DNA of 64,000 nucleotides from Fimbriiglobus ruber (GTDB lineage: Bacteria > Planctomycetota > Planctomycetia > Gemmatales > Gemmataceae), in the NCBI RefSeq assembly GCF_002197845.1, contig NZ_NIDE01000009.1, positions 310,001-374,000 on the forward strand, given 5' to 3'. Under the pieces are notes generated by a model. It was given only the letters and a program-made list of their open reading frames with translations. It had not been told where the DNA came from and did not search any database. Of the stretch, positions 8,290 through 49,738 are shown piece by piece; within the stretch, counting starts at the first letter, position 1; every line of letters begins with the position of its first letter. Position numbers and translations under genes: made by a program.

Positions 8290-8785
8290 GGCGGGCGCTC
8301 CACTCGATCGAATGCAATTCCAAGGAAAGAACAATTCGCTGGGCTTACCAGTTACACTGTTCTTTCCATGACTTCGTCGCTGTTAAGCCGCCAGGTCCAA
8401 TAGCCGCTCGGCAGCGGCCTGGATTTCCGCCTCGGTCATGCCCGGCCGCAGAGCCGCCCGAATCTCTTTTCCCTGTAATTCCCGCTGCCACCCCGCCGCT
8501 TGTCGGCGTGGCTCGGTCGCCGGGCGGGGTCGTCCCACGGAGCCGACGCCCGGTGTCCGACAAGGGCCTCTGGGGTCGCGGTCGACGCCCACGCCTCGGT
8601 CATCGCGAACGTCCACAGGCAGACATGGAACGCTCCGACGTTGGCGTGGAATCGTCGGACTTGTTGGTGGCCCGCTCCGACCACTTGCTTGAGGTCGCGG
8701 AATGTGGTTTCGATGGCACAGTCACAATGCCTCCGAAGGTGGAGTGGGGGTGGCCCGAGCGACCGGCGGTCGGGCCACGGCGAGT

Positions 8786-10912: not shown

Positions 10913-11159
10913 GACCGCTCTCCTTGCGACTTCGCGCGACGTGGCACCGGGCGAGCAACTGGCCGAGGAGTTCGTGGAGTTGCTTCTGGCGATCGGCGGG
11001 GAGATGGGCCCATACCGGCGGCGGGCTGTTCGTCGGGGAAGAGACCGGCGTCAAGCGCGGGGGGGACGGAGCGGCGGGCGGGGTCGGACATGCGGTTCCT
11101 CCGGTGAGTTCCTCTTGGCGCTGCCGGCACCACACGGTCAGCTCGAGCAACGCCGTCAC
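10905..11159 (-). CDS. Small protein coupled to the serine recombinase
   Basis: 84 residues: a conserved-looking N-terminus (MTALLELTVWCRQRQEELTG), a Pro-rich linker and a helical basic C-terminus (QKQLHELLGQLLARCHVARS). It overlaps the recombinase start by 8 bases, so the pair forms a two-gene operon. In the second copy of the element a 2-base shorter G run shifts the frame after PAAPSP. A role as a recombination directionality or accessory factor is conceivable from size and position only. Confidence 0.6.
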   Translation of the reverse strand: MTALLELTVWCRQRQEELTGGTACPTPPAAPSPPRLTPVSSPTNSPPPVWAHLPADRQKQLHELLGQLLARCHVARSRKESGHE

Positions 11160-12524
11160 GTCGATGGTAACCGATCCGCCGGGTGCCGACCCACCTCCCG
11201 CTTGAGGGGTAGTCTGCTTGGTTCTTCTCCAGGGCGAACCGGCCAGCTACCCGGGTCAGGATGTCCGCGACGGTGGCCGCCGGGTCGGTGCAGAAGTACG
11301 CTCGCCACCCGGTCGGTTCGTCGACCACGACGACCCGGATGGCCCCGCCGGCCGGCCGCCACGTGGCGACGAACGTCTTGTACCGCTTGACCGTCGCCTT
11401 CCCGTACAGGACGAACGTCCCGGTCGACTACCCGCCCTTCTGGCCGGCCCGCTTGGCCAGGGAAATCCGCCGGTCGCCGTAGCTCCGCTGCCGTCCCCGT
11501 TGCCCCGGACGCCGCGGACCCGGTTCCGTCCACAGGGCCGCGTCCTTCCGCAGGCGGCTGACGACGCGGACCCCGAGGGCCTTCACCGGCTTCAGGAACG
11601 GGGCCGTGGCGTACGCCCCGTCGGCCACCACCCACAGGGCTTTGCCACACGCGGCCAAGCACGACGCCGCCCACCGGACGAGTTCGACGGCCATCGCGTG
11701 CTTGGTCCGGAAGACCGGCCGGTCGACCGCCGGAATGCCCGCCACGTCCTTCGCCCGGACGTACAACCGGGCGAGCAGGGGGAGGGCTGTGATCCCCCAC
11801 GTCGGGTGCGTCACGAGCAACCCGAGGACGACCCACACGTGCCCGTACACGTATGCCGACCCGGCCGGGCCGGGGGTCGGGTTGTGATGCACCCCCGCGC
11901 CCTGGACCTGCGGCCCGTAGCGTTCGGTCGGGGTGTCGTCGAGAGCCAGCGTCAGGTACTCGTCGGCGGCCACCAGGGGCTGGACGACCGCGCTCACCAA
12001 CCGGGTCGCGCACGCGTCCGTCCGCCGGCCGACGGCCGCCACGGTCGTGTAACACGAGCGGAATTGGTCACCCAAACCGGCCGCCCGAATCCACCCGGTG
12101 ACCGTCCGCCGACCCCGGGCGACAACCGCCCCGACGAACAACCGGGCCAGTCGGGTACCGGAACGGCGATCCAGAGCGGTGACCAGGCGGGAAAACCAGT
12201 GGACGGCGGGCGGGGTGGTCTGCGACGATATCATGGCCGAGTCCGTTCGGGGCATGGGTTGGTGTGGTAACCCCCATCGTCCCGGGCGGGCCGGCATTCT
12301 GTCTACCCGATCTCGCTACCCCACTCCGTCACACGATTTCGCGGAAAGGACAGGTTACAAAAACCGTAGGGGAAAATAAAATATGTTACCCGGCATGCGA
12401 ACAACATTACATATTTGCAACGTTACCCGCGGTCGTGCTTCCCCGCGGGTTCTTGGCGAACGGTCGGCGGAACTTTCCGCCTCTATTTCTTCAACGAAGG
12501 ATGAACCCAAGGAGTAAGAAAGGC

Positions 12525-15999: not shown

Positions 16000-16312
16000 C
16001 AGGAGTCGTGGGGATCCATAAACGGCCGTGAACCGTCTGATCAGCTCGCAAAGCAGTGACTTTGAGGTCGCCCTCAAAATGCCGAGTTTTGTCTCCGTGC
16101 GGAGGCTTGGATCAATTTGAGAGGGTCAAGTCCAGTTTTTGCTCGCATTCAAACTCGCCGTCAATTTCTCGATTTTATTTCCTATTTTCGCGAATCACCT
16201 CGCCCGCCGACCGCATAGTTAACAGATAGAGCCTTTTATTTCCCCGCCAGTCCGACCGGCCGCACCGCGGAGGTTCCTGGGGTTCACCACAACCCCCCAC
16301 GGACCTCGCGCC
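16000..16312. other. Intergenic region before the recombinase cassette
   Basis: Around 310 bases, more AT-rich than the flanks, with no supportable gene. It probably contains the promoter of the cassette and perhaps its left boundary. Confidence 0.4.
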
Positions 16313-16513
16313 ATGCATCTCGGCCTAGACCCATCCGAACTCACCTCATCCGACCGTCTGCGGGCCGTCGCCACCATCCTCGCGGCCGGCCTCCGCCGCC
16401 TCCACAACCACAACGGCCTTCGCACCGATCCACCTCGGCAAAATCTCTCGGATTCCCGCACGAACGAGCTTGCTTTAACGCCGGACACGAGCGTCACTGT
16501 CCACGGCGGTTAA
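16313..16513 (+). CDS. Small conserved protein of the DUF2924/recombinase cassette
   Basis: 66 residues (MHLGLDPSELTSSDRLRAVA, then ILAAGLRRLHNH). The pattern D-P-S-E-L-T followed by an amphipathic helix with VATILAAGLRRL recurs, as known from planctomycete genomes, just upstream of DUF2924/recombinase pairs. It lies 41 bases before the DUF2924 gene. The function is unknown; it may be an accessory factor of the recombinase. Confidence 0.6.
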   Translation: MHLGLDPSELTSSDRLRAVATILAAGLRRLHNHNGLRTDPPRQNLSDSRTNELALTPDTSVTVHGG

Positions 16514-16554
16514 CGCCGGTCCCAGAGCCCCAGAGAATTCGCGAGGGAAAACTC

Positions 16555-17045
16555 ATGTCCCAGGACGTCGGGCGGGCGATCGCCGCCCTGCCCCGGATGA
16601 CGGTCAAGCAACTCCGGGCCAAGTACGCCGAGGTGTTCGGTGAGGCCACGAACGGGCACAACAAGGCGTGGATGGTCAAACGGATCGCGTGGCGGCTCCA
16701 GGCCAAGGCTCAGGGCGGCCTGTCCGACCGGGCCAAGAAGCGGGCGGCGGAACTCGCCGACGATGCCGACCTCCGCGTCACCGCACCCAAGGTGCCCGCT
16801 GCCAAGGAATCGCCCCGGTGGCCCGCGAGGTCGGCTTCGCGAGCGATGAGCGGCTGCCCCCGCCCGGCACGATCATCACCCGCCCGTACAAGGGCCGCAC
16901 TCTCCACGTCCGCGTCCTGGCCACCGGGTTCGAGCACGACGGGACCGTGTACACGTCCCTCAGCGCGGTTGCCAAGGCGATCACCGGGTCCCACTGCAAC
17001 GGGTTCCGGTTCTTCCGTCTCGACGCGAAGGACGGTGCCGAATGA
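16555..17045 (+). pseudogene. DUF2924 family gene with a single-base frameshift
   Basis: The N-terminal frame reads MSQDVGRAIAALPRMTVKQL then KYAEVFGEATNGHNKAWMVKRIAWRLQ, the DUF2924 signature. Near 16808 the frame must change by one base to continue as IAPVAREVGFASDERLPPPG and on to the conserved end GTVYTSLSAVAKAITGSHCN-GFRFF. The rebuilt protein is about 163 residues. DUF2924 proteins regularly precede a serine recombinase, here overlapping by 4 bases (ATGA at 17042). Whether the frameshift is real or a sequence error is open. Confidence 0.8.
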
Positions 17046-18628
17046 AACGCACCTCCAAAACCCCGGCAACGACCGAGCGGTCGATGGTGCGGTGTGCGAT
17101 CTACACCCGCAAGAGTACCGACGAGGGGCTCGACCAGGCGTACAACTCGCTCGACGCCCAACGGGACGCGGGCGAAGCATACGTCCGCAGCCAGGCCGGG
17201 GACGGATGGCAGGCGATCCCCGACCGATACGACGACGGCGGATTCGGCGGCGGCTCCACCGACCGGCCCGCCCTCCGGCGCCTCCTGGCCGACATCTCGG
17301 CCGGGAAGGTCGACGCGGTTGTCGTGTACAAGGTCGACCGGCTGAGCCGGTCCCTGCTCGACTTCGCCGGGCTCATGCACACGTTCGACCAGCACAAGGT
17401 GTCGTTCGTGTCCGTCACCCAGCAGTTCAACACGGCCACCAGTATGGGTCGGCTGGTGTTGCACGTCCTCCTGTCGTTCGCCCAGTTCGAGCGGGAGCTG
17501 ATCGGCGAGCGGACGCGGGACAAGATCGCGGCCACCCGGCGGAAGGACAAGTGGGCCGGCGGGTGGCCGGTCCTCGGGTACGACGTCGACCCCGTCGCCC
17601 GCAAGCTGATCGTGAACCCGGTCGAGGCGGGCCGGGTGCGGGTCATCTTCGCCCTGTACCGGGACCACGGGTCGCTCCTCCCGGTCGTTGACGAACTCGC
17701 CCGCCGGGGGTGGCGGACGAAGGCGTGGACGACTAAGGCCGGGGCTGCCAAGGGCGACCGCCCGTTCACCCGCACCGGGCTGTACCAGACGCTGACCAAC
17801 GTCGTGTACGCCGGCAAGGTGCGGCACAAGGACGCCGTCCACCCCGGCGAGCACGAAGCGATCATCACCGCTGACGTGTGGGAGAAGGTGCAAACCCAGC
17901 TCGCCCGGTCCGGGAAGGCCGGCGGGGTCGCGGAGCCCGCGCGGTTCGGGGCTATCCTGCAGGGTCTCCTGCGGTGCCGCCCGTGCGGGTGCGCGATGAC
18001 CCCGACGCACGCGACCCGGGGGGCCAAGAAGTATCGGTACTACGTGTGCAACGCGGCCCAGAAGAAGGGGTGGCGGACGTGCCCGTCGAAGACCGTCCCG
18101 GCCGCCCAGATGGAGGACCTGGTGGTCGCCCAGATCCGCGGGATCGGGAAGGACCCGGCCCTGGTGCGGGAAGTCATCGAGCAGGCCCGCCAGCAATCCG
18201 CCGACCGGGTGGCCGAACTGACCCGGGAGCGGAAGGGCGTCGCGGCGGAGTTGAAGGCTCTGCACGCCGAGGTCGCGGCCGTGTCGGCCCGGCTGGGAAC
18301 GGGGGACGACGGCCCGGGGCTGGGCCGGTTGGTCGACCTGCACGCCCGGGTCGCGGCCGCCGAAGGCCGGGCGCGGGAGTTGGACGATCAACTCCAGACG
18401 GCCCGGGCCGACGCGATCGACCCGGCCGTGGCGGCGTCGGCCCTGGCCGCGTTCGACCCGGTGTGGGGGACGCTGACCCCGCAGGAACAGGGGCGGGTGC
18501 TGCGGCTACTCGTCGACCGGGTCGAGTACGACGGCGGGCGGGGCAAGGTCGGGATCGCGTTCCGGCCGGCCGGATTGGCGGCGCTGGGGACCGAGTGGGC
18601 GATCACTGAACCCGGGGAGCAGGTATGA
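17042..18628 (+). CDS. Serine recombinase of the DUF2924 cassette
   Basis: 528 residues. The resolvase domain has the nucleophile Ser in CAIYTRKSTDEG (about residue 25) and the motif VVYKVDRLSRSLLDF. A recombinase domain follows, then a zinc ribbon (CRPCGCAM ... YYVCNAAQKKGWRTC), a coiled coil of about 100 residues and a C-terminal LLVDRVEYDGG segment. It performs site-specific DNA strand exchange. ATGA overlaps link it to DUF2924 upstream (17042) and to the HTH gene downstream (18625). It is unrelated at sequence level to the 708-aa recombinase of the IS701-targeting element. Confidence 0.92.
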   Translation: MKRTSKTPATTERSMVRCAIYTRKSTDEGLDQAYNSLDAQRDAGEAYVRSQAGDGWQAIPDRYDDGGFGGGSTDRPALRRLLADISAGKVDAVVVYKVDRLSRSLLDFAGLMHTFDQHKVSFVSVTQQFNTATSMGRLVLHVLLSFAQFERELIGERTRDKIAATRRKDKWAGGWPVLGYDVDPVARKLIVNPVEAGRVRVIFALYRDHGSLLPVVDELARRGWRTKAWTTKAGAAKGDRPFTRTGLYQTLTNVVYAGKVRHKDAVHPGEHEAIITADVWEKVQTQLARSGKAGGVAEPARFGAILQGLLRCRPCGCAMTPTHATRGAKKYRYYVCNAAQKKGWRTCPSKTVPAAQMEDLVVAQIRGIGKDPALVREVIEQARQQSADRVAELTRERKGVAAELKALHAEVAAVSARLGTGDDGPGLGRLVDLHARVAAAEGRARELDDQLQTARADAIDPAVAASALAAFDPVWGTLTPQEQGRVLRLLVDRVEYDGGRGKVGIAFRPAGLAALGTEWAITEPGEQV

Positions 18629-19035
18629 CGACGCCGACGATCGAGTGCGACGTTCACTTCGACCGCCGCGGGCGGGGCGGGCGGAAGGTGCTGGCGGCCG
18701 GTTCGGCCCCGCCGGCCTCACCGGGTCGGGTCCCCCGCGTCTCGCGGCTGATGGCCTTGGCGATCCGGTTCGACGGTCTGGTCCGGGACGGGGCGGTCGG
18801 TAGTTACGCCGAGCTGGCCCGGCTCGGGCAGGTCACGCGGGCCCGGGTGACGCAGATCATGAACCTGCTCTACTTGGCCCCGGACGTCCAGGAGGCGATC
18901 CTGTTCCTGCCCCGCATCGAGCGGGGGCGGGATCGGATCGTTCTCCGGGACCTGCAGCCGGTGGCCGCAGTACTGGACTGGCGGGAACAGCGGGAGCGGT
19001 GGAACGCCCTCTCCCGTCACCCCGGGCACTCATGA
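18625..19035 (+). CDS. HTH protein of the recombinase cassette
   Basis: 136 residues overlapping the recombinase stop by 4 bases. The middle carries a helix-turn-helix: GSYAELARLGQVTRARVTQI followed by MNLLYLAPDVQEAILFLP. Proteins of this type follow the DUF2924-recombinase pair in many bacteria and probably bind DNA near the att site or repress the cassette. It is the last gene of the four-gene unit that starts at 16313. Confidence 0.75.
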   Translation: MTTPTIECDVHFDRRGRGGRKVLAAGSAPPASPGRVPRVSRLMALAIRFDGLVRDGAVGSYAELARLGQVTRARVTQIMNLLYLAPDVQEAILFLPRIERGRDRIVLRDLQPVAAVLDWREQRERWNALSRHPGHS

Positions 19036-19226
19036 AATGATCGACGAGAACGAACATGGACAAAATACTACTACCGACTGGTTTTCCGACGGACGACCGG
19101 TGTATGCTCGGTCCGAGTCTGTACGGACGGGTCGCCACACGGTCCTCGTGAGGTGCCTCCTGATTTCGCACCGTAATCGCTACCGTCCCGATTCGAGTCC
19201 CCGCATCCGACCCCGGTAACCGCAGT

Positions 19227-21737
19227 ATGTCGCCCGAAAAATACGACACACCGACCGAAAGCCGAACCCCCGAGACCGACCCCGTGGAAAAAACGGGCGA
19301 AAAATCACCGCCCCGCAGCAGGTCGCGCAAGGTGAAAAAAGGCCCCATTTTTGGCGGCGCGGAACCGACCCCGAGCCCGCTCCTGTTCGTCGGGGAGGAC
19401 TGGACCGACTTCCGCCAACTCGACCGGATCACCGTTAAGGCGGGCGTAGCCAAGGACTTGCTCCCGCGGGTCGCGGTCAAAGAACTGGTCGACAACGCCC
19501 TCGACGCGGCCGACGCGGCCGGACAGGCGGGGGCCGTCGAATACGGTCGGCTCGACGCGGACGACGACGCATTCGGGTTCTTCGTTGCGGACCACGGGCC
19601 CGGCATCCCGGGCACCAACGCCGAACTCGCCGTCCACTTTTCCATCCGCCGTCCACTCACCACGTCCAAGATGAAACTCATGCCGTCCCGCGGGAAACTC
19701 GGGAACGGCATCCGGGTGGCCGTCGGGGTCGCCCTCCTCGGCAACGGGGATGTCCGGGTGAGCACCCACGGCTGCACCCTGACGCTCGTTCCCCAGGCCG
19801 ACGACGGGACCACCCGGGTCGCGGCCGACGACCCGTGGGACGGGACGGGCACCCGGATCGAGGTCCGGTTCGGGGACCCGGTGGCCGCCATCGCCCGGGC
19901 CGACCGCGACCTGTTCCGGTGGGCCGATGTGGCCACCCGCCTCCTGAACCGTGGAACCCGGTACAAGGGCCTGTCGTCCCCTTTCTGGTACAACCCGGGC
20001 ACGTTCTTCGAACTCCTCCAGGCGGCCGGCGAGACCCCGCTGGCCCGGGTGATCGAGACCCTCGGCGGGTGCACCAGCGACCGCCGGGTGGCCGCGATCA
20101 CGGCCGGGTTCCGAGACCGGACCGCCCGGGCCGTCACCCGCCCCGAGGCCGCGGTCCTGCTCGACCGCTGCCGCCACGACCAGGACCCGGTGCCGCCCCA
20201 CCGGCGGGGCGGAGTCAAGAAGATGCCCGGCGTGTACGACGGGTATGGGAAGCGAACGGTGCTGCTGGACGACGACGGGCGGGAGGTTCCGTACGTGATC
20301 GAGGCGTGGGCCCACAAGCAGGCCACCCCGGCCCTGACCGTGTGCGTCAACCGGACCCCGATCGTGACCCGCGTCCACGCCCGCCGGGACGGCACCGAGT
20401 ACGCCCTGTTCGGGGCCGGGTTGAGCCACGGCGTCCGGGCCGGGCGGAAGAAGTTCGGGGAGTACCGGATCCTGGTCAACGTCCTGTCCCCCCACCTGCC
20501 GCTAACGAGCACCGGGAAAGAACCCGACCTCGACCCGGTGGTCGCGGGGATCGGCGGGGCGGTCGCCCAGGCGATCCGGGGAGCCCGCCGGGCGGCCCCG
20601 GGGGCGGGGGCCGGGGCCCACACCCAGAAGGAGGTCATCCGGGACCACATCCCGGCCGAGGCCGCCCGCCTGAGCGGCGGCGGGGCGTACCAGTTCTCCC
20701 TCCGCCAACTGTTCTACGCGATCCGCCCGACGCTGATCGACGCGATCGGACAGGAGCCCGAGTACGGGCGGTTCTCGAAGGTCGTCGGGGAGTACGAGGA
20801 CGCGGTCGGGGCGATCCCCCACATGTACCGGGACAACCGCGGGTCGATCTACCACCCGCACGTCGGGCCGGCGGCCGGGACCATCCCCCTGGGCAGCCGG
20901 ACGGTGGCCGAGTACACCCGCCCGGCGTGGCGGTTCGACAAGATCCTGTACTGCGAGAAGGAGGGCCTGTTCCCGGTCCTCCAGCACGCCCGGTGGCCCG
21001 AGCAATACGACTGCACCCTGCTGACCGCCAAGGGGTTCGCGAGCCGGGCCGTTCGGGACCTGGTGACCCGCCTGAAGGGCGGGGCCGAGCCGGTCACGGT
21101 GTACTGCATCCACGACGCCGACGGGCCCGGGACGGTCATCTACGAGTCCCTCAAAGACAAACTGGCCGCCCCCGGGGTCGAGGTCGTCAACCTCGGGCTC
21201 GACCCGGCCGAGGGGCGGGCGATGGGCCTGACCGTCGAGCCGGTCAAGCGGAAGGCGAGTGCCCGGGGGACCGAGCCGCGGGTGGCCGTCGCCCGGTACC
21301 TGTCGGACGACGACCAAGACTGGCTCCAGACGCATCGCATCGAGCTGAACGCGATGACGTCCCCCGAGTTCATCGCCTGGCTGTCCCGGAAGATGGCCCC
21401 GTACCACACCGGCAAGGTGGTCCCCCCGGTCCCGGTTCTCACGGCCGAACTGGAGAAGGTGGCCCGGGCCGGTCTGGCCGCCCACTTCACCGCCGAGACC
21501 CTCCGGCGGGCCCGCATCGCAGACCGGGTCGAGGCCGCGGTGGCGGCCCACCGGGGGCACCTGGACGGAGTGTCGGCGGGGGCCGACGCGGCCGTCCGGG
21601 CGGCCCTGGCGGTGGCCCCCACGACCCACTGGGCGGGGGCGGTCAAGGATCAGGCCGACATCGCCGTTCGCGGCATCCTTGGGGACCTGGGCGGCGGGTC
21701 CCGGCGCCCCAGGAAAGGCTCCGGACGAAAGATCTGA
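19227..21737 (+). CDS. Topoisomerase VI-like B/A fusion (GHKL ATPase + Toprim)
   Basis: 836 residues. The first 45 are polar and disordered. A GHKL ATPase follows: N box KELVDNALDA (85-94), G1 box ADHGPGIPG (121-129), lid/G2 GKLGNGIRV (156-164) and GTGTRIEVRF. The second half resembles TopoVI-A/Spo11: a 5Y-CAP-like segment FSLRQLFYAIRP with Tyr497 as candidate nucleophile, then Toprim Glu577 in YCEKEGLFPVL and Asp630/Asp632 in IHDADGPG. The B-A order in one chain recalls topoisomerase VIII of mobile elements, expected to make ATP-dependent double-strand passage or breaks. It lies just after the recombinase cassette. The transducer region is shorter or diverged, so the activity is inferred. 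Confidence 0.75.
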   Translation: MSPEKYDTPTESRTPETDPVEKTGEKSPPRSRSRKVKKGPIFGGAEPTPSPLLFVGEDWTDFRQLDRITVKAGVAKDLLPRVAVKELVDNALDAADAAGQAGAVEYGRLDADDDAFGFFVADHGPGIPGTNAELAVHFSIRRPLTTSKMKLMPSRGKLGNGIRVAVGVALLGNGDVRVSTHGCTLTLVPQADDGTTRVAADDPWDGTGTRIEVRFGDPVAAIARADRDLFRWADVATRLLNRGTRYKGLSSPFWYNPGTFFELLQAAGETPLARVIETLGGCTSDRRVAAITAGFRDRTARAVTRPEAAVLLDRCRHDQDPVPPHRRGGVKKMPGVYDGYGKRTVLLDDDGREVPYVIEAWAHKQATPALTVCVNRTPIVTRVHARRDGTEYALFGAGLSHGVRAGRKKFGEYRILVNVLSPHLPLTSTGKEPDLDPVVAGIGGAVAQAIRGARRAAPGAGAGAHTQKEVIRDHIPAEAARLSGGGAYQFSLRQLFYAIRPTLIDAIGQEPEYGRFSKVVGEYEDAVGAIPHMYRDNRGSIYHPHVGPAAGTIPLGSRTVAEYTRPAWRFDKILYCEKEGLFPVLQHARWPEQYDCTLLTAKGFASRAVRDLVTRLKGGAEPVTVYCIHDADGPGTVIYESLKDKLAAPGVEVVNLGLDPAEGRAMGLTVEPVKRKASARGTEPRVAVARYLSDDDQDWLQTHRIELNAMTSPEFIAWLSRKMAPYHTGKVVPPVPVLTAELEKVARAGLAAHFTAETLRRARIADRVEAAVAAHRGHLDGVSAGADAAVRAALAVAPTTHWAGAVKDQADIAVRGILGDLGGGSRRPRKGSGRKI

Positions 21738-21901
21738 GGCCGGGACCGGATGGCTCCCGCGACGTCGAGGCCGGTGGCCAGGTCGAAGCGCCACGGATCT
21801 CGGCCGTGCCAGGAAGTCCGGACGGCGGCCGGAGCCGTCAAGACCACGCTCGTTTCCGTCCCCTCGAACCCGGTTTACGACCGGCCACTCCCAAAAGTCG
21901 A

Positions 21902-22249
21902 CAGCGATTCCCGACCTCGACGCAACCCGTTGCGGGCCATCAAATTTCCGGACAGTGGACATCGCGCCAGTACTGATCATCCGTTCGAATTCTTGCCCCA
22001 CGTAATGGAACCCCAGAGAGCCCTGTACTTTACGATTTACCACGAGAACAGGGATTTGTGCTTGACATCGTGGAAAACGTACCTCGATAGCACTATTAGC
22101 ACATTGTTCACTAGTCATACGATCGCAAACCGGAGCCCCACAACAGTTTGCAGTTTATAGTGACCACGTGTTCACAGGATATTATCGCGATACATCGAAT
22201 ATCGAATTCTTTATGCAGCAACGGGTTGCGTCGAGAGCAGGAATCGCTG
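21902..22249. repeat. Inverted repeat of 32 bp, arms 280 bp apart
   Basis: Arms at 21902-21933 and 22218-22249 match at 29 of 32 positions in opposite orientation and share CTCGACGCAACCCGTTGC. They may be the ends of a small degenerate element or copies of a dispersed repeat. Confidence 0.55.
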
Positions 22250-22253
22250 GCGA

Positions 22254-22393
22254 TTTTTGCACGTCGTGCGACCCTGCTGCGGAGCGCGCAAAATCGACCT
22301 GTTTTTCCTCCCGCCCTTGTCCGTTTTCTTGGACCGCCAACAACCGTACGGCCAAAAGTTGCCGTTTTTTGCACGTCGCGCGACCTGCTGCGG
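22254..22393. repeat. Two direct copies of a GCACGTCGYGCGAC motif
   Basis: Copies at 22254-22283 and 22366-22393, 112 bases apart, share TTTTTGCACGTCG, YGCGACC and TGCTGCGGA. Each contains a short palindrome (GCACGTCGTGC in copy 1) and is followed by an A-rich then T-rich run. They may be protein binding sites or decayed tandem repeats. Confidence 0.5.
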
Positions 22394-22679
22394 ACCGTGA
22401 AAAAGTGGGCCGTTTTTTCCGCGACGGACACGTATCGCGGATCCCAAGGACTCGCGAAAAATACCGCAGGTCGTGATTCCGTATGGAGTTATTGCACTTC
22501 CCGGGGGCCAGCGAGCCGGTCCATTCTTTCCATTGCGACCTCGGGGCTGTGACCCACGGATTCGACATCTGGGTTGGATTGCACGAATCACTCGATCCGC
22601 CGCGGACAGAAACGGGCCGCACGCGGGGAACTGACGCGAATCAGTAACGGGTCGATCCTGCCCAACTTTCGATTCTATC

Positions 22680-22907
22680 TTACTCTCTGACGATCGACGC
22701 GAGTTGCACGCCAGTTCTTACACAGGGGGGGGTGATAGGGTCCACCGAGACATCGGCGGCCGGATGTTCGAGACCACAAGTGACCGGACGGGGGTTGGCT
22801 GTCACGGCAACAGCCGGATCGCCGGCTTTGCGATGCGGCACCCGGGAGGACACACCCCCGACGATCCGAGCGTGACAACAATCAAAGACACCGTACGCCG
22901 CATGCAA
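22680..22907 (-). pseudogene. Possible fragment related to the primase-like gene
   Basis: The C-terminus of this frame (PPCVRTGVQLASIVRE) matches an internal segment of the neighbouring primase-like protein (PPCIRTGVQLALLVRA). At DNA level this is a 43-bp direct repeat, 22685-22727 against 23264-23306, about 39 of 43 identical. The rest of the frame shows no convincing similarity. It may be a partial duplication or a recombination scar. Confidence 0.3.
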
Positions 22908-22937
22908 CTCATCGGATCGGAATGACGCCGTCGACGA

Positions 22938-24374
22938 TCATCTGTCGGCCCGAATGGCATTAAGCGGGCACACCCCGCCGAGCAGATAGTCCGATGCTCT
23001 TCCCGACCGCCGACTCCCCTTCCGTACCCGCCGCAGTAACCCGCGGGTGCAGAAATCCGTCAGCCACCGCCCGGTCGTCGCCGGGTCGATGTACAGGAAG
23101 TCGGCGGCCGTGTCCCGGCTCAGGAAGAACGAACCGCCCCACCGCCGCCGGCCGAGTTGCCAACACAACGCGAATAGTCTCTCCTTCCCCTCGCGGGTCC
23201 ACCGGATCCGATCCCCGAACGTCACCCCTGGCGGTACCCCATCACACCGGGCACGCTCCCATGCTCTGACGAGTAACGCGAGTTGCACGCCAGTTCTTAT
23301 ACAGGGTGGGTTTGCTTCACCAGCCACCGGGGTAGTGGTATTCAAGGGGACGGCGGACGGGTCGTAGAAGGAGCGGCACGTCCCGATCGCGACATCGATC
23401 TGCTCGGCGCCCCAGGTCGCTCGCGACCGCGGGGCGTCCCACTTCCGACGGACTGCCTCGGTCGCCTGGAACAGCGGGGACGACCGGAACACGGCGTCTA
23501 ACCGCTGCGGGTACGGGCCGACCCAGAACGCCAGATACTGGAGCAGGGCCAGCACGGCCTCGGACGAGCTCGGGTACCATTCGGAATCGCCCGCCCACAA
23601 CTTCTTGACGCGCTCCCCGTTCGCCGCCGCGAACGCCCGCTCAACAATGCCTGCCGTCGGCCCGTCCAGGCGGCACGGGGCGTCCGTCGCCGCAACCTCC
23701 GGGCGACGGCCGACATCGCGAAGGTCGTCCTGAAGGTGGCGGGCGGCCGCCCCGCACGCGACCACGGCCGCCGGCGCGTCCGCCAGCCGGTGCCCGGTCA
23801 CGGTCAGGAACCGGTCGGCCGCGTACAACTCGACCAGCCCCCGTTTGCACGGCCCACCCGGGTCCAGGTCGCCCCGCCCGAACCCGCGAACCCCGGCCCG
23901 GAACGGTGACCACTCGGCGTACGTCCCGACCCCGCGGACGATGTCCTCGGCCCACGGCCGGACGTCGCCGGCCTCGTAATCCCCGCACCCGTCCAGGTCG
24001 TACCCGACCAACCCAGCCTCCCGCCGGAGGATCAGACCGACCCCGTCGTAATTCCCGTCCCGGTACGACTCGTAGGCGTAGGAAAACGAACACCCCGCCC
24101 CGCGGCGGGTAATGTCGATGGGGCGCTCAGTCCGGGGGTGGACGGGTACTTTCTTGGGCTTGTTCGAGCCGCCCGGTGCCAACTGCCAGACGACCCAGAA
24201 GGGGAGTTGTTTGAGGTCGTCCGGAATGCCGTCCGGGCGGACCCGGAGGAGCGGGGAGTAATCGTCGTACACGCACACGGCGGGCGCCTCCGCCCTCCCC
24301 CGGGCCGGGCGGCTCGGGAGCGGACACGCCCGCGACCGACCGTGCGCCGCGCGCCGGGTTCGGGACCAAATCAT
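22938..24374 (-). CDS. Primase-polymerase-like protein with C-terminal winged helix
   Basis: 478 residues. The core matches the PrimPol group seen in phages and plasmids (NrS-1 polymerase type): FWVVWQLAPGGSNKPKKVPV, then GVGLILRREAGLVGYDLDGC with the metal-binding Asp126/Asp128, and later ELYAADRFLTVTGHRL. These enzymes start DNA chains during element replication. The C-terminal 110 residues look like a winged helix (FFLSRDTAADFLYIDPATTG, then RWLTDFCTRGLLRRV). No helicase domain is attached, unlike many relatives. The first 33 residues are Arg-rich and may not be translated; no better start is obvious. It suggests that the 22.7-29 kb region is or was a replicating element. Confidence 0.75.
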   Translation of the reverse strand: MIWSRTRRAAHGRSRACPLPSRPARGRAEAPAVCVYDDYSPLLRVRPDGIPDDLKQLPFWVVWQLAPGGSNKPKKVPVHPRTERPIDITRRGAGCSFSYAYESYRDGNYDGVGLILRREAGLVGYDLDGCGDYEAGDVRPWAEDIVRGVGTYAEWSPFRAGVRGFGRGDLDPGGPCKRGLVELYAADRFLTVTGHRLADAPAAVVACGAAARHLQDDLRDVGRRPEVAATDAPCRLDGPTAGIVERAFAAANGERVKKLWAGDSEWYPSSSEAVLALLQYLAFWVGPYPQRLDAVFRSSPLFQATEAVRRKWDAPRSRATWGAEQIDVAIGTCRSFYDPSAVPLNTTTPVAGEANPPCIRTGVQLALLVRAWERARCDGVPPGVTFGDRIRWTREGKERLFALCWQLGRRRWGGSFFLSRDTAADFLYIDPATTGRWLTDFCTRGLLRRVRKGSRRSGRASDYLLGGVCPLNAIRADR

Positions 24375-24621
24375 CGTTCCAGCGTTCGGGGCGGTCGTTC
24401 CACCGCCGCCGACTCAAGCCCTGATGGGCGAACCCAAATCGGCCGCCCAAGTCACCCCATCACACGACCTGCCGCAACTCGTCCGATTCCCACGACTGGA
24501 GCCGACGAATTCCGGCACGGCCGGTCCGACCGATCGCGGGCGTCCCGCGACGCTTCCCGTGCCGCGGCGTGCATGGAATCATTTCCACGTCTATCCATGT
24601 GAACACATTCCGCCGCCGGCG

Positions 24622-25164
24622 TCAGCCCCCGCCCTGCGAAGACAGGTACGCGTCCAGGTCGCGGGCCGCGAATCGCTCCCGGAGCCGTTCCACCCGCCGC
24701 CCCAGAGTCGCCCGCGAGATCCCCAGGTCGCGAGCTGCTGCGGCACATGACTGCTCCCGCAACCGCTCGGCCACCTCCCGCAACTCCCGCGGCAGCGCCG
24801 CGACCTCGGCCGCCACGTCGGCCCGCAGCTCGCGGCCCCGGCAGTCGTCGGCCGGGTCGACCCGCTCGTCCGGGTCGTGGCGGTCGATGTCGCACGCCAG
24901 GATCACCTTTTCTCGGCCCCGCTTGGTCGCCCGGTACTCCCGTAGCATCATCGCCGCCGCCCGCCCGACGACGACCTCGCAGAACACCAGCGGGTGCCCG
25001 CGAGCCGGCCGATACTGCGGCCACCCGCCGAGCAATCGGGCGGTCAGTTCCTGCTCCACGTCGGCCCGCTCGGACGCCCCCAAGCCGGCCCGACCGACCA
25101 CCACCCGGGCGTGCTTGCGAACCAGGGCGACGGACGCCGCCGGCAGTTCGAGCTCGGCCACCAA
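24622..25164 (-). CDS. Sigma-70-like/phage-type transcriptional regulator
   Basis: 180 residues. The N-terminal half resembles sigma region 2 (DVEQELTARLLGGWPQYRPA). The C-terminus has a clear helix-turn-helix like sigma region 4: VAALPRELREVAERLREQSC followed by AAAARDLGISRATLGRRVERL. It is probably a small sigma-like regulator of the accessory region. It is on the same strand as the primase-like gene, 250 bases upstream of its start, so it may control it. Confidence 0.7.
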   Translation of the reverse strand: MVAELELPAASVALVRKHARVVVGRAGLGASERADVEQELTARLLGGWPQYRPARGHPLVFCEVVVGRAAAMMLREYRATKRGREKVILACDIDRHDPDERVDPADDCRGRELRADVAAEVAALPRELREVAERLREQSCAAAARDLGISRATLGRRVERLRERFAARDLDAYLSSQGGG

Positions 25165-25301
25165 GTACCTCCCGCCGGCCCGCGGGTGGCTCGGACCGCC
25201 GGCGTGGCTCGCACGCCGGGCCGGGTCCGCCCTCGCCTCCGCATCGCGGCCGGCCGAACGTCAGAACGGGGGAAAACGGTTACACGACCACCGTGTAAGG
25301 C

Positions 25302-25631
25302 CTAGCGCGGCGGGCTGGTGAGGAGCATGCGAAACGGGATCCCGTGCTTGATCTCGAGCGCGGCGACCGTTCCGTCACCCAGGTCGGCCAGTCGCCGGAT
25401 CAGTTCGATGACCTGGGCCTTGAGCGGGAAGTCGGGGGCCATGAGCTCGGGCCGTGCGCCGTTCTCGCCCCCGAATTTGACCTCGGTAACGTACCGCGGC
25501 AGGGGGTCGAGGACCGGTTGGCCGCGGCGGACCGGCAGATCCTCGATGGTGCCGAAGTTGATCCGCTGCATGAGTTCGACCAAGCGGCGGGCGGCGGGGG
25601 TCAGGGACGACTTGAGGGGGGCCGACGTCAT
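25302..25631 (-). CDS. Conserved hypothetical protein, 109 aa
   Basis: Starts MTSAPLKSSLTPAARRLVEL; an upstream in-frame Met at 25658 is less likely because the chosen ATG follows a GGAGG-like run. Contains INFGTIEDLPVRRGQPVLDP and a C-terminal helical part with IKHGIPFRMLL. The motif NFGxIExLxVRxGxP recurs in small planctomycete proteins near phage-like genes (from memory, not checked). The role is unknown. It lies 137 bases upstream of the sigma-like regulator on the same strand. Confidence 0.6.
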   Translation of the reverse strand: MTSAPLKSSLTPAARRLVELMQRINFGTIEDLPVRRGQPVLDPLPRYVTEVKFGGENGARPELMAPDFPLKAQVIELIRRLADLGDGTVAALEIKHGIPFRMLLTSPPR

Positions 25632-26002
25632 ACATCCTCCGGGGCGGGGTCGTGGCACACGACCGTCGGGTCACTGGGGTATCAGGAGGGCCACTGGCGC
25701 GGGGCTGGTGACGAAGTCTACCGGGGCCGTTGCCTGAGTGCGGGAAACCCTTCCCCCGGCAGATCGCACGCGGGCCGCCGGGGGGGGTGGACTCGCGCGC
25801 TTCGGTTGCTGCCGGCCGCTGGGGCGGTCGGCGGTTCCGGCGCGGGTGTCCACCCCAGATGGTGGCCGCACGATGGGAACTACCGGGTTGACGGATCACA
25901 CGCGGGTCGAGGGTACCCGTCTTTCGGAAACAGGCAACGTGCGAGGTTATCCTGGGGTGCCGAGCCATGCCTACAGCCTAACCCGCCCGCCGGAACACCC
26001 CG
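25632..26002. other. Divergent intergenic region
   Basis: About 370 bases between divergently transcribed genes (25631 on minus, 26003 on plus). It should hold both promoters; no clear motif was recognised. Confidence 0.4.
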
Positions 26003-26287
26003 ATGACCATCCGTTCCCGCCTCGCCCGCATCGAGCAGTCGGCCCGCGACCGACCGCCGGCCGACGTCCTGCACATCATCTCGGTGGTGCGGACCGACCA
26101 GGACCCCGACCGCCGACCACCCGGCGTGTACCACTATCCGAGCCGCACGTCCGTCGACCTCGTCCACGACGGACCCGAACCCGATCCCGTCGCCCTCCGT
26201 ACCCTCACCGACCGCCTCGCCCCGTGGGGGCTCGTCATCACGTGCGACGCGGGCGAACCGATTTCGGAAATTCTGCCGGATTCGTGA
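26003..26287 (+). CDS. Small protein with MTIRSRLARIEQ N-terminus
   Basis: 94 residues. The N-terminus (MTIRSRLARIEQSARDR) shares the pattern M-x-x-R-x-R-[LV]-x-R-[LI]-E with three other small proteins here (27983, 28654, 36649), which suggests a common leader helix. The remainder (DVLHIISVVRTDQDP, then VTCDAGEPISEILPDS-like end) shows no known domain. The gene precedes the ParB-methyltransferase by 73 bases on the same strand. Confidence 0.6.
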   Translation: MTIRSRLARIEQSARDRPPADVLHIISVVRTDQDPDRRPPGVYHYPSRTSVDLVHDGPEPDPVALRTLTDRLAPWGLVITCDAGEPISEILPDS

Positions 26288-26360
26288 GGCAGGTGAGGGC
26301 CGGACGGCAAACTTAACAGGTAGGGGGACATTGCGACGAGTTTGTACACCGGGAGATGCG

Positions 26361-27542
26361 ATGGACGTTCAGATGCGGCCGGTCGGTTCGATCACCCCGT
26401 ACCCCGGCAACCCGCGGGACAACGCCGCGGCCGTCGACGCCGTGGCCGCCTCGATCCGCGAGTTCGGGTTCCGCCAGCCGATCGTGGTCGATGCCGCCAG
26501 CGTGATCGTGGTCGGCCACACCCGGTACCAGGCGGCCGTCCGGCTCGGCATGGTCGAGGTCCCCGTCCACGTGGCCGACCTAACCCCGGCCCAGGCCAAG
26601 GCGTACCGGCTGGCCGACAACCAGACGGCCACCCTCGCCACCTGGGACGAAGCCCTCCTGCCGAAGGAACTGGCCGACCTCCAGGCCCTCGACTTCGACC
26701 TCACCCTGACCGGGTTCTCGGCCGACGATCTGGCCCGCCTGCTCGCCGACCCGCCGGGCGAACCCCAGGCCGACCCCGACGACGTCCCCGAACCGCCGGC
26801 CGAGCCCGTCACCCGGCCCGGCGACGTGTGGGCCCTCGGCCGCCACCGCCTCGTCTGCGGGGACAGCACCGACCCCGCCGTCATCGCCACCGCCCTCAAC
26901 GGCACCGCGGCCAACCTGCTGTTGACCGACCCTCCGTACAACGTGGCCTACCAGGGCAAGACGGCCGAGCGGCTGACGATCGCCAACGACGCAATGGGCG
27001 AATCCGCATACCACCAATTCCTCACGTCCGCCCTCGGGGCCGCCGTGACCCACCTTCGCCCAGGCGGGGCGTTCTACGTCTGGCATGCCGACCTGCACGG
27101 CCTGACCGTCCGGGCCGCCTGTGGGGACGCCGGGCTGACCGTCCGCCAGTGCCTGGTGTGGGTCAAGCCGGGCCTCGTCCTCGGCCGCCAGGACTACCAC
27201 TGGCGGCGCGAGCCGTGCCTGTACGGCTGGGCCGACGGGGCCGCCCACACGTGGCTCGGGGACCGCTCCCAGACGACCGTCCTCGAGTTCGGTAAGCCGG
27301 CCAAGAACGCCGACCACCCGACCATGAAGCCGGTCGACCTGTTCGCGTATCTCATCGCCAACTCGTGCCCGGCGGGCGGGACCGTTCTCGACCCGTTCGG
27401 CGGGTCCGGAACCACCTTGATCGCGGCCGAGCAGACGGGACGAACGGCGTGCTTGATCGAACTCGACCCCGGCTACTGCGACGTGATCGTGGCTCGGTTC
27501 GAGGCCGTCACCGGCACCAAAGGCGTGCGCAATGCCGGGTAA
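26361..27542 (+). CDS. ParB-like nuclease domain / DNA adenine-or-cytosine-N4 methyltransferase fusion
   Basis: 393 residues from ATG 26361, preceded by GGGAG; an in-frame upstream start at 26331 is less likely. Residues 1-100 form a ParB-like domain (ITPYPGNPRDN, FGFRQPIVVD, VVGHTRYQAA). The rest is an amino-methyltransferase with catalytic DPPY (about 190-193, LLLTDPPYNVAYQ) before the AdoMet-binding FxGxG (about 346-350, VLDPFGGSGTTL), the order of beta-class N6-adenine/N4-cytosine enzymes. Such ParB-MTases are common in phages and integrated elements, where they protect element DNA. No cognate endonuclease lies nearby. Confidence 0.92.
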   Translation: MDVQMRPVGSITPYPGNPRDNAAAVDAVAASIREFGFRQPIVVDAASVIVVGHTRYQAAVRLGMVEVPVHVADLTPAQAKAYRLADNQTATLATWDEALLPKELADLQALDFDLTLTGFSADDLARLLADPPGEPQADPDDVPEPPAEPVTRPGDVWALGRHRLVCGDSTDPAVIATALNGTAANLLLTDPPYNVAYQGKTAERLTIANDAMGESAYHQFLTSALGAAVTHLRPGGAFYVWHADLHGLTVRAACGDAGLTVRQCLVWVKPGLVLGRQDYHWRREPCLYGWADGAAHTWLGDRSQTTVLEFGKPAKNADHPTMKPVDLFAYLIANSCPAGGTVLDPFGGSGTTLIAAEQTGRTACLIELDPGYCDVIVARFEAVTGTKGVRNAG

Positions 27543-27600
27543 ACCTGACGGTCGGCGGGCAGAGTCTGACGATCGACAGAATCGAGGAGGGGATCGGATG

Positions 27601-27980
27601 GGAAAGGCGCTGCGGAAGAAGAACCAGGACGGGCTGTTGATCGCCCTGGCGTGCGGGGCGACGGTCGAGGGGCGGCCCGCCAGTGCGGGGTCCACGAGCG
27701 GACCGTGTACCGGCGGCTGGAGGAGCCCGACTTCAAGCGGGAGTTACAGCGGGTGCGCGCCGACATGTTGGCCCGGGCGGCCGGGATGCTCACCGCGGCC
27801 GGGCTGGAGTCGGTTCGGACGCTCCTGGAGTTGCTCAAGCCGACCGGCCCGGCGGCCATCCGACTGGGGACGGCGCGGGCGATCCTGGAAATCGGGCTGC
27901 GGGTCCGCGAGGTGGTCGACCTGGAGACGCGGATCGCCGACCTGGAGCAAAAGTTCGGGCTGACCGAAGGTGAGCAGTAA
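27601..27980 (+). pseudogene. Terminase-small-subunit-like HTH gene with frameshift
   Basis: Frame 1 reads MGKALRKKNQDGLLIALACG then ATVE. One base later the true frame continues RQCGVHERTVYRRLEEPDFK and ends LEQKFGLTEGEQ. Together they form a helix-turn-helix (ALACGATVE..A..RQCGVHERTVYRRL) plus a C-terminal coiled coil, about 125 residues. This is the layout of phage terminase small subunits and related plasmid HTH proteins. The offset lies in a GGGGCGG run near 27666. The gene is followed 2 bases later by the next start codon. No large terminase gene is present. Confidence 0.65.
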
Positions 27981-27982
27981 CG

Positions 27983-28207
27983 ATGGGCGTGCGGACGCGG
28001 GTGACGCGGTTGGAGCGGGACGCGGCGGGTCGGGCGGAGAACGCGCCGGTGAAGCCGGTCGTGTTCGTGCGGCTCCCGTACAACGGCCGCGGGCCGCCCC
28101 TCCCCGGGGAGTACCTCAGCCTAGACGGCCGGGTGCTAACAGTCATCTACGAGTCGGTGGTGACGGACCGGAGCGACATTGAGGACTGGATCCCGCAGCG
28201 CGGATGA
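27983..28207 (+). CDS. Small protein with MGVRTRVTRLERD N-terminus
   Basis: 74 residues. The first 12 follow the M-x-x-R-x-R-V-x-R-L-E pattern also seen at 26003, 28654 and 36649. The rest contains VFVRLPYNGRGPPLPGEYLS and ends SDIEDWIPQRG. It starts 2 bases after the terminase-like gene and overlaps the zinc-binding gene by 4 bases (ATGA at 28204), so the three form one operon. Confidence 0.6.
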   Translation: MGVRTRVTRLERDAAGRAENAPVKPVVFVRLPYNGRGPPLPGEYLSLDGRVLTVIYESVVTDRSDIEDWIPQRG

Positions 28208-28566
28208 TCAGCACGAGGGTATGGGAGATGCGGGCGGCCGGTCGGTTCGAGAAGTTGCTCCGGGTCTATTCGCGGGCGGCCTGCCCGGAGTGTTCCCGGC
28301 CGCTCCGCGGGCACGACGATCCAGCCCCCGAGTGGGATCCGCCGGCCGCCTTCCACCGCGACGTGGTGCCTCTCCTCGAAGGAATCCTCAAGCGCTGTCC
28401 CGAGCCCCCGGACCCGTGCCCAGGGTGCCAGCGACCCGCCGAACCGGACGGGTGGAACTTCGCGATCAAGTACGCGACGCCCGAGGAGTTGGGGAGGCTG
28501 GAGCGGGCGTTCAAGCGGTACATGCCGGCGTACGTGTACTTCGACAAGGGGAAATGGCGGCGGTGA
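28204..28566 (+). CDS. Small CxxC protein (possible zinc binder), intact copy
   Basis: 120 residues. Two Cys pairs, CPECSRPLRGHDD and CPGCQRPAEPDGW, separated by about 40 residues, could bind one zinc ion. A conserved EWDPP and a C-terminal IKYATPEELGRLERAFKRYM follow. Diverged or broken copies are at 37232-37592 and 45394-49595, with tails at 36330-36413 and 36505-36563. The function is unknown. The ATGA overlap ties it to the preceding gene. Confidence 0.7.
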   Translation: MISTRVWEMRAAGRFEKLLRVYSRAACPECSRPLRGHDDPAPEWDPPAAFHRDVVPLLEGILKRCPEPPDPCPGCQRPAEPDGWNFAIKYATPEELGRLERAFKRYMPAYVYFDKGKWRR

Positions 28567-28653
28567 GGCGGTGCCCCGCCGCCGCCCACAATTCAGTTAG
28601 CCGCTTCCCTTTCGCGCGGCTCACGGTCGCCTCACCCGATCCCGGTTCCCACT

Positions 28654-29073
28654 GTGAAGTTCACCTCCCGCCTCGTTCGTCTCGAGGACACCGCCCGCTG
28701 CCTGCTCCCACCACCGCCCATACGCGGCCCGAGATGCGACGAGGAATGGCTGGCCGCGTTCGAGCAGTGGGGAGCCGCCGGGCATTTCGCCCACGAGCCT
28801 GATTTTCCGGTGGCCCTTTCCTTGTTCCGCAATGCGATTGCTTCCGCCAAGTCCCAGTTTGACCCGCCGTGGGAGCCGCCTGCGGACTTCATGTCCGACC
28901 ACCGCCACCCGCACATCCGACTTGAGTGCTGGCGGGCGAACTTCTCCGAGGTACGGGCGGCTTATCCGTGGCGGACGGAATACCGCCCCCTCCCCCTGAA
29001 AAGCATCAACACTCCTGCGCGTTTTTCTGAACATGCCCCCATGGTTTCCCCCCGCGTGTTCCAGACTTTCTGA
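28654..29073 (+). pseudogene. Truncated copy of the MKxTSRLVRLED protein
   Basis: From a GTG start (MKFTSRLVRLEDTA) to about 28960 it is nearly identical to the gene at 36649 (WLAAFEQWGAAGHFAHEPDF, SAKSQFDPPWEPPADFMSDH, RLECWRANF). After RAAYPW the sequence diverges and the remaining 35 residues look like readthrough. The 36649 copy continues 130 residues further with sensible protein sequence, so this copy is 3' truncated. Confidence 0.65.
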
Positions 29074-36104: not shown

Positions 36105-36648
36105 AGTGGGTGGGAAATTCCGTAAACGACAAGCCGTGTCGTGGAGGCGGCGGAGAGGAGTCCGGCCGGTAGGTGAATAAAAGCATACGCTCGGATACTG
36201 TACTTTACAACAGATCTCGTTGAAACGTCCGGCGCTCCAACCGCGACGGCTTCAACAAGTGGCCGTGATCACGAATCGTCACCTTGGTCGAACCGATCCC
36301 GGACACGGACCAACTTGCGAATCCGCCACTTCAGCAACTTCAGACTGAACGCCATTGCCGAGTACGAACTTGAGGGCTTGCGGCGGGAACTCAAGCGGGT
36401 CATGACGAGCTAAGTGTTCTACGGAATTGATCGATGTAAATCGCTGAGACAATAGTCTTTCTTTTAAATCGCTACCCCAGAAGGAATGTTACGGATTCAG
36501 TTGGCGTTCAAGCGGTACATGCCGGCGTACGTGTATTTCGACAAGGGGAAGTGGCGGCGGTAAATCGCTGCCGCGGTGCCCACCGACTCACCACATTCCA
36601 TTCGACGTCACACGGCTTACGTTCCCCCACCCGAATTCGGTCCCTGCT
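36105..36648 (+). other. Region of decayed CxxC-gene tails
   Basis: No intact gene. On the plus strand, 36330-36413 reads RLNAIAEYELEGLRRELKRV then MTS and stop, like the tail of the CxxC family (HELEALQRALKRVMPA). 36505-36563 reads AFKRYMPAYVYFDKGKWRR and stop, identical to the end of the 28204 gene. These mark at least two further duplications. The first 200 bases are AT-rich and hold the likely promoter of the sigma gene. Confidence 0.6.
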
Positions 36649-37386: not shown

Positions 37387-37592
37387 TCTGCGACACCCTC
37401 GGCCCGGCTTTCAAACGGTCCCCGAAGCCGCCCGAACCGTGCCCGAAGTGCCTTCGCACGGCCGACCCCGACGGGTGGGTGTTCGTGATCAAGTACGCCA
37501 CCCCGCACGAACTCGAGGCGCTCCAGCGGGCACTCAAAAGGGTCATGCCGGCGTTCGTGTATTACGCCATCGAACGCCGGCGAGGACGGTGA
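37232..37592 (+). pseudogene. CxxC family gene, 5'-degenerate copy
   Basis: The frame reads NFCATDYGPSYREND, then PTPEWDPPAEYHRVICDTLG, PCPKCLRTADPDGWVFVIKY and ATPHELEALQRALKRVMPAF to the stop at 37590. The second CxxC pair (CPKC) is intact but the first is reduced to one Cys, and no good start codon is present. A shorter product could begin at 37383. Compared with the 28204 gene it is diverged, so this is an older duplicate. Confidence 0.5.
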
Positions 37593-49689: not shown

Positions 49690-49738
49690 TGAAGATCACG
49701 ACCGCCTCGCTTGACTTGAGGACACCGCCTGTCAAATA
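49690..49738 (+). pseudogene. Remnant of an MKxTSRLVRLED gene start
   Basis: GTGAAGATCACG followed by a CCTCGCTTGACTTGAGGACACCG-like stretch matches the first 16 codons of the 28654 and 36649 genes with small deletions, and ends in TAA. It shows that the CxxC gene and this gene were copied as a pair here too. Confidence 0.5.

Follow-up and report, generated by a model that had tools for sequence, protein, structure and literature searches.

A topoisomerase VIII-type gene in a recombinase-primase element found twice in Fimbriiglobus ruber

The planctomycete Fimbriiglobus ruber carries, within a 64,000-nucleotide stretch of contig NZ_NIDE01000009.1 (positions 310,001 to 374,000; the window), a gene whose product is almost certainly a member of the topoisomerase VIII (Topo VIII) family. 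The 836-residue open frame (window 19227-21737, + strand) fuses in one chain a half resembling the B subunit of topoisomerase VI (Topo VI), with a GHKL ATPase, an H2TH region and a transducer, and a half resembling the A subunit, with a catalytic-tyrosine domain and a Toprim domain. Membership is supported by an alignment over 92% with a Paenibacillus polymyxa plasmid protein, by a phylogenetic tree and by the predicted structure, and the gene is apparently intact. It lies in a ~12-kb element that recurs in the same genome, and its product probably performs ATP-dependent duplex passage on the DNA of that element.

Topo VIII is already known as an uncommon enzyme of plasmids and integrated elements, to which the window protein adds one more. 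In the papers cited here, it is called a "single chain variant" (PMC5922973) and has a short C-terminal extension relative to Topo VI (PMC8185306), and a figure legend gives a plasmid-borne P. polymyxa Topo VIII, named by species only, as a family example (PMC7614492). The literature searched, mostly without subscription papers, yielded no paper describing the present element.

Domain architecture and catalytic residues

Five regions could be placed along the chain, followed in the predicted structure by a helical tail after the Toprim domain:

19467..19871, + strand: GHKL ATPase domain, residues 81 to about 215 (Pfam HATPase_c, secondary structure of the model)
19995..20207, + strand: putative H2TH-like helical region, residues about 257-327 (structural alignment with 1mu5, profile alignment through the region)
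20241..20594, + strand: transducer-like domain with K431, residues about 339-456 (secondary structure of the model, profile match of its GK)
20625..20849, + strand: winged-helix (CAP-like) domain with Tyr497, residues about 467-541 (predicted helix/strand order, profile alignment)
20943..21404, + strand: Toprim domain with E577, D630 and D632, residues about 573-726 (PF21180; VIA-align to 1d3y_A, Z 15.1, root-mean-square deviation (rmsd) 2.9, 168 aligned)

The Pfam family Top6A-Spo11_Toprim (PF21180) matches residues 573-643 above its curated cut-off (E 2.8e-9), and HATPase_c matches residues 81-189 (E 1.3e-5), falling 0.4 bits short of its own. A first-pass annotation, made from the letters alone, had read all GHKL boxes of a Topo VI-B ATPase in this protein, and E86, N90, D122, G124, G126, G156, G159 and G161 do stand at the expected places. 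It had also read, in the same chain, a Spo11/Topo VI-A-like part with Tyr497, Glu577 and Asp630/Asp632, which is borne out by a profile alignment (hhalign) of the A half with seven Topo VI-A rows (probability 98.4, E 6.5e-15). Here SLRQLFY, whose last residue is Tyr497, pairs with SLREVFY of Topo VI-A, E577 with the Toprim Glu and D630-x-D632 with the DxD; the Toprim residues are thus aligned with their Topo VI-A counterparts.

These 12 residues and K431 make up 13 motif positions. Together with eight others that were inspected, all 21 are identical in each of the five rows of a first alignment and unchanged between the two genome copies of the gene. In a broader 23-row alignment, the catalytic tyrosine is found in 21 rows and E577, D630 and D632 in 22; locus L067 is without the A-half core, and L068 has Phe in place of Tyr. 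The L067 frame (10016-11167, from a Deltaproteobacteria metagenome-assembled genome (MAG)) is Topo VIII-like without the tyrosine and Toprim core, reflecting either a deletion or an assembly fault.

A search of solved structures with the single sequence returned Topo VI A and B only, at weak E-values (0.015 to 0.24). The 23-row profile matched Topo VI-B 1z59 (E 1.9e-14, profile positions 40-407) and Topo VI-A 1d3y (E 2.5e-8), with MutL, topoisomerase IV (Topo IV) and kinases ranking lower, and the GK containing K431 aligns with the Topo VI-B GK.

In the full-length model (predicted local distance difference test (pLDDT) 78.3, predicted template-modelling score (pTM) 0.50), residues 57-472 align with Topo VI-B 1mu5 (Z 23.2, rmsd 4.8, 387 aligned of a 416-residue span). 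Gyrase, Topo IV, Topo II and Hsp90 ATPase regions are listed beneath Topo VI-B, and viral HSP90/RIIA-type proteins are poor structural matches (template-modelling (TM) scores about 0.2). Residues 538-727 align with Topo VI-A 1d3y_A (Z 15.1, rmsd 3.3, 169 aligned). Modelled separately (pLDDT 83.0, pTM 0.74), the A half aligns with Topo VI-A 9o0g_A (Z 15.4, rmsd 2.9, 173 aligned), a C. glutamicum nuclease (8b7f_A; Z 13.3, rmsd 3.0, 159 aligned), JetD (7til_B; Z 12.0, rmsd 3.2, 160 aligned) and Spo11 (8urq_A; Z 11.3, rmsd 3.3, 156 aligned).

Family placement and distribution

Seven plasmid records were matched by tblastn, three of them partially. They include the Pseudomonas megaplasmids pBASL58 (Pseudomonas sp. 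Leaf58) and pMPPla107 (Pseudomonas amygdali), with Topo VIII-type proteins 37.5% identical over 90% and 36.7% over 87%, and two P. polymyxa plasmids at 34.8% and 34.7% over 92%. The latter value belongs to pPPM1a of strain M1, whose protein (WP_014600290.1, annotated 'ATP-binding protein'; E 1e-122) we take to be the P. polymyxa Topo VIII of the literature. It is likewise a single chain with B preceding A and the same motifs, in keeping with the Topo VIII-like order proposed at first pass. However, it is plasmid-borne, whereas the window gene is carried by a recombinase element within a 404-kb contig, and the window protein has about 50 additional N-terminal residues, modelled with low confidence. 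The two megaplasmids differ from the window in that no recombinase-DUF2924 cassette is annotated near their genes in an incomplete gene table, and the window recombinase has no match in the flanks examined. A tblastn search of phage records with the Topo VIII protein gave no match, and scans of viral and genome contigs with a single Topo VIII protein found nothing.

In a tree of the A half, 23 Topo VIII-type rows, the window protein among them, are separated from seven Topo VI-A rows at 100/100. Topo VI (A2B2) shares the folds, the tyrosine, the Toprim and the ATPase motifs, but has two separate subunits and occupies this separate clade, whereas the window protein is a single chain. The window protein groups with the second genome copy (91/84) and next with a Planctomycetota MAG, L051 (96/97), where the window protein and copy 2 belong to three rows of unusual letter make-up. 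Less surely, the viral contigs L090 and L091 and the Pseudomonas plasmids join this group (94/86, 92/89); the Pseudomonas proteins are the nearest plasmid rows, in a seven-row set whose support (94/86) is not starred. The G034 row (L012_G034_A) is a remnant on a branch of 4.53 and is to be disregarded.

The 23-row alignment comprises the window protein and 22 of 41 loci; the other 19 (L070, L071, L073-L089) were omitted because they are split or incomplete, or are Topo VI or other ATPases. L067 and L068 count among the 23 rows and were omitted from the A-half alignment. The tree uses 30 chosen rows, leaving out L053, L055, L060, L062, L064 and L072, which are close to included rows, as well as L066, L067, L068, L070, L071 and L075.

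Close relatives are rare. Matches above 500 bits occur in two of 392 genomes sampled across the phylum, F. ruber itself and G121. At least 240 of the 392 match at E 0.001 or better; among the matches listed, 238 genomes score no better than E 4.3e-9, and their matches are probably Topo VI, MutL or kinase ATPases. Among 59 relatives, F. ruber included, six match at E 0.001 or better, with a close and near-full-length match in F. ruber only. Within its genome, PF21180 finds the two Topo VIII genes and no third (as a control, it finds four archaea among 14 named genomes), and therefore no host Topo VI is seen.

The element and its diverged copy

The features of the element are as follows:

16196..28170, no strand: integrated element, ~12 kb (colinearity with copy 2 by blastn and sliding alignment of both regions)
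16555..17045, + strand: DUF2924 gene, frame broken in the window copy (PF11149 E 2.2e-17; one-base difference from copy 2 near 16814)
17042..18628, + strand: large serine recombinase with Resolvase, Recombinase and Zn ribbon domains (PF00239 E 4.8e-39, PF13408 E 1.3e-15, PF07508 E 3.6e-10)
18625..19035, + strand: small recombinase-cassette protein, read at first pass as helix-turn-helix (HTH) (phrog_14161, described as recombinase, E 6.6e-19; no Pfam match up to E 1)
19227..21737, + strand: Topo VIII, single-chain B-A fusion, 836 residues (Pfam, alignments, tree, model)
21738..22937, no strand: intergenic stretch, mostly unalignable between copies, including a piece like a miniature inverted-repeat transposable element (MITE) (sliding alignment)
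22938..24374, - strand: phage/plasmid-type primase with NrS-1-type HBD domain (PF22763 E 5.7e-16; phrog_1829 DNA primase E 1.1e-46, profile positions 5-302 of 772)
24622..25164, - strand: sigma-factor-like protein (phrog_1740 E 1.1e-7)
25302..25658, - strand: 118-residue protein, no family match (99% identical in copy 2; phmmer E 2.1e-17 to L070 6909-7289)
26003..26287, + strand: 94-residue frame, no family match (89% identical in copy 2)
26331..27542, + strand: ParB-N-type / N6-N4 DNA methyltransferase (PF01555 E 6.9e-22; phrog_498 E 1e-155)
27651..27980, + strand: possible small-terminase-like protein, weak (phrog_2538 E 0.0036; phmmer E 4.8e-8 to a frame of L069)

The Topo VIII frame begins 191 bases past the end of the HTH gene at 19035, where about 190 had been counted at first pass. 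The suggestion made there, that it belongs to one element with the DUF2924-recombinase-HTH cassette, is supported because the colinear block recurs in the same genome. Copy 2 lies at about 228.7-241.2 kb of the same contig (G000:C9), 97 kb off and in the same orientation, and both blocks share the order DUF2924, recombinase, HTH, Topo VIII, primase, sigma-like and methyltransferase. The host setting is a 404-kb contig of a 12.4-Mb genome. The left end falls at about 16170-16200. In the stretches that were compared, neither copy has direct repeats of 12 bases or more linking its ends, so the right end is approximate; identity falls off from 28170 to 28941. The window holds no tRNA genes.

The element is an integrated one, possibly related to phage, with the large serine recombinase as its likely integrase. 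Phage satellites of the phage-inducible chromosomal island (PICI) kind are defined by an integrase, a primase, a small terminase and dependence on a helper, without capsid genes. Here, integrase and primase are present and the small terminase match is weak; the L069 frame that it matches itself hits phrog_2538 at E 4.2e-5. The large terminase family phrog_2 matches four places in the genome, none on this contig, and also 11 of the 14 control genomes. Within this genome, DUF2924 is confined to these two blocks, and none of the 14 controls has it; the family search recovers it as a single full match in copy 2, whereas in the window copy its 5' and 3' parts fall in different frames. The window recombinase also has ten distant places of equal score elsewhere in the genome, at which sameness of the element is not established.

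The two copies do not differ evenly. Over aligned bases, the left block (window 16200-19035; DUF2924, recombinase, HTH) is 92.1% identical, the 191-base gap 5' of Topo VIII 82.0%, the Topo VIII gene itself 72.6% and the alignable part of the stretch 3' of it 58.3%. Identity reaches 93.9% over 22938-28170 (primase, sigma-like, 118-residue, 94-residue, methyltransferase and small-terminase-like genes), before dropping to 71.1% at the right edge up to 28941, which contains a small multi-copy gene family. In steps of 100 columns, 21 of 29 in the left block and 42 of 53 in the right are at least 90% identical (ranges 80-99 and 82-100), and the Topo VIII steps range over 49-85. The proteins follow suit: the recombinases are 94% identical, the primases 92% and the Topo VIII proteins 61%. 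The sigma (70%) and methyltransferase (68%) values were set aside because broken frames in copy 2 depress them. Despite differing at 39% of residues, the two Topo VIII genes keep open frames of 826-836 codons.

Synonymous divergence (dS) is 0.22 for the recombinase, 0.125 for the primase and 0.52 for Topo VIII, and non-synonymous divergence (dN) 0.030, 0.043 and 0.305. Because dS is raised along with dN, the gene sequences suggest replacement by an older allele, or homogenised flanks, rather than selection alone, with the caveat that GC-rich codons saturate dS. Topo VIII has a dN/dS ratio of 0.59, compared with 0.14 in the recombinase, 0.17 in the HTH gene, 0.35 in the primase and 0.72 in the 94-residue frame. 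Opposite window 26549-27494, the copy 2 methyltransferase shows nine single-base deletions in about 950 bases, which are either decay or read errors.

Part of the 3' difference is a MITE-like insert, a 348-base piece at 21902-22249 inside 42-base inverted repeats; a copy 98% identical to it lies at G000:C14:911059-911406, and contig C4 has pieces matching at 84% and 76%. The intergenic stretch was considered as a clean replication origin and rejected, those 348 bases being a repeated MITE-like piece. Short related repeats (CTGCTGC... type) lie 3' of Topo VIII in both copies (window 22248-22417 and L010 14454-15301). A small repeated gene family with frames of 120 and 139 residues sits at the right edge of the element and beyond, along the window (28204-29073, 36503-37569, 45400-45661, 49542-49729). 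Elsewhere, a 2.5-kb stretch occurs twice in the window (8710-11229 and 45997-48513, 99.8% identical), the former containing a 708-residue frame read as serine-recombinase-like.

Proposed role and alternatives

We favour the view that this is the Topo VIII of an integrated element and acts by ATP-dependent duplex passage on the element's own DNA. Duplex passage is the most economical reading because the protein has the motifs for ATP-gate closure, tyrosine cleavage and metal binding, and its gene shares the element with genes for an integrase and a primase. A homodimer would close its GHKL/transducer gate upon ATP, holding two duplexes, one of which would be cut via Tyr497 with the metal-binding Toprim residues E577/D630/D632. 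The second would be passed through the break, which would then be resealed. The likely client is the DNA of the element, which the enzyme may unlink or relax while the element's own primase primes replication, or following excision by the serine recombinase; we lean towards such a part in replication or resolution. According to a review, several Topo VIII enzymes relaxed and decatenated DNA in vitro, and the function of Topo VIII and its relatives is unknown (PMC8084294).

The surroundings of related genes bear on this role. Primase-type genes lie near Topo VIII-type genes at six loci (L065, L069, L070, L014, L015, L075) and terminase genes at three (L065, L090, L013). L065, of a Desulfotomaculum MAG, holds over ~11 kb a primase-like gene, Topo VIII, a ParB-type methyltransferase, and small then large terminase genes, and on viral contig L090 Topo VIII is followed by small and large terminase genes. 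L069 carries a serine recombinase, a primase, a small-terminase-like gene and Topo VIII; in L070, a homologue of the 118-residue protein precedes the genes for primase and Topo VIII, the B and A parts of the latter occupy two frames, and a tyrosine-type integrase is also present. In G025, of the same family as F. ruber, the A part is its own gene followed by a small terminase (L013), and a B part, cut off by the end of a different contig, lies close to a primase-like gene there (L014), possibly a split version of Topo VIII. In G034, of another genus of that family, L012 10155-10532 is a C-terminal Topo VIII remnant beside apparent transposase sequence; it was considered as a separate A subunit and rejected, being Topo VIII-like only at its C-terminal part and adjoining that sequence.

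Several observations weigh against duplex passage on the element. Tested Topo VIII enzymes are reported to have been weak, and many appear inactivated (PMC7614492). The seeds for primase, terminase, methyltransferase and integrase match 10 of 34 Topo VIII-type loci, seven of which are the sources of those seeds, with none among the included Paenibacillus, Bacillus and Desulfosporosinus loci, so a partnership is not shown family-wide. In the full-length model, the relative placement of the two halves is unsure (pTM 0.50). The Z alignments of the A half begin past the tyrosine domain and omit it, and the winged-helix assignment therefore rests on the profile alignment and predicted helix/strand order. 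Of the CAP fold proposed at first pass, the helix-turn-helix/wing order around Tyr497 and the profile match hold up, and a structure-based alignment of that small domain alone was not obtained. A Foldseek alignment of the A half with Topo VI-A (E 3.1e-8, 321 columns) spans more than the Z alignments, including the tyrosine domain, but with rmsd 15.5 and TM 0.33-0.35, as if the two modelled domains were rotated relative to each other. Finally, the elements may be in decay, given that the DUF2924 frame is disrupted in the window copy and that copy 2 has breaks in its methyltransferase and sigma genes.

We consider it unlikely that the enzyme is an ATP-controlled double-strand breaker, the alternative raised at first pass, which would resemble the Spo11 core complex and cut DNA for excision, recombination or defence with no strand passage. 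The A half does align structurally with Spo11, JetD and the C. glutamicum nuclease, and Spo11 and Wadjet JetD have a similar Toprim-containing fold; neither is known to have a GHKL ATPase within the same chain. An A. degensii Topo VIII is reported to show ATP-independent cleavage only (PMC7614492). However, the Spo11 partner is said to have lost H2TH, and Spo11-type breaking is tied to this loss and to reduced ATP hydrolysis (PMC11302465), whereas the window protein keeps the ATPase motifs, the H2TH region and the transducer lysine, making a breaker less likely. Scans of the neighbouring element proteins with Pfam and PHROGs (PADLOC was not run) found no match to JetABC or to a recombination partner.

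Quite unlikely, too, is a vestigial gene with no present function in a decaying element. The frame breaks, the higher dN/dS of Topo VIII than of the recombinase, HTH and primase genes, and the G034 remnant would fit such decay. Yet both Topo VIII frames remain open with all 21 inspected residues unchanged, the 94-residue frame has a similarly high ratio, so this is not peculiar to Topo VIII, and the breaks could be read errors.

From the pattern of identity alone (flanks 92% and 94%, Topo VIII gene 73%, 5' gap 82%, 3' stretch unalignable), Topo VIII and the non-coding DNA 3' of it might together be a single swappable unit that sets the specificity of a phage-satellite-like element, which we regard as improbable. 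The enzyme would act at a cis site adjoining its gene, and swapping enzyme and site would let two near-identical elements coexist in one chromosome without interference.

A chromosomal Topo VI serving the host is very improbable: the gene sits on a large contig and at least 238 other genomes of the phylum sample match weakly, in part read as Topo VI, but the protein is single-chain, falls in the Topo VIII clade and scores strongly in only two of the 392, and just five of 58 other relatives match at all, none closely and near full length.

A complete Topo VIII in a small recombinase-primase element, present twice and diverged, offers a compact natural system for asking what the enzyme does. Its divergence between two otherwise near-identical elements is the part most worth following, and the relatives near primase and terminase genes point first to replication or packaging of phage-like elements.

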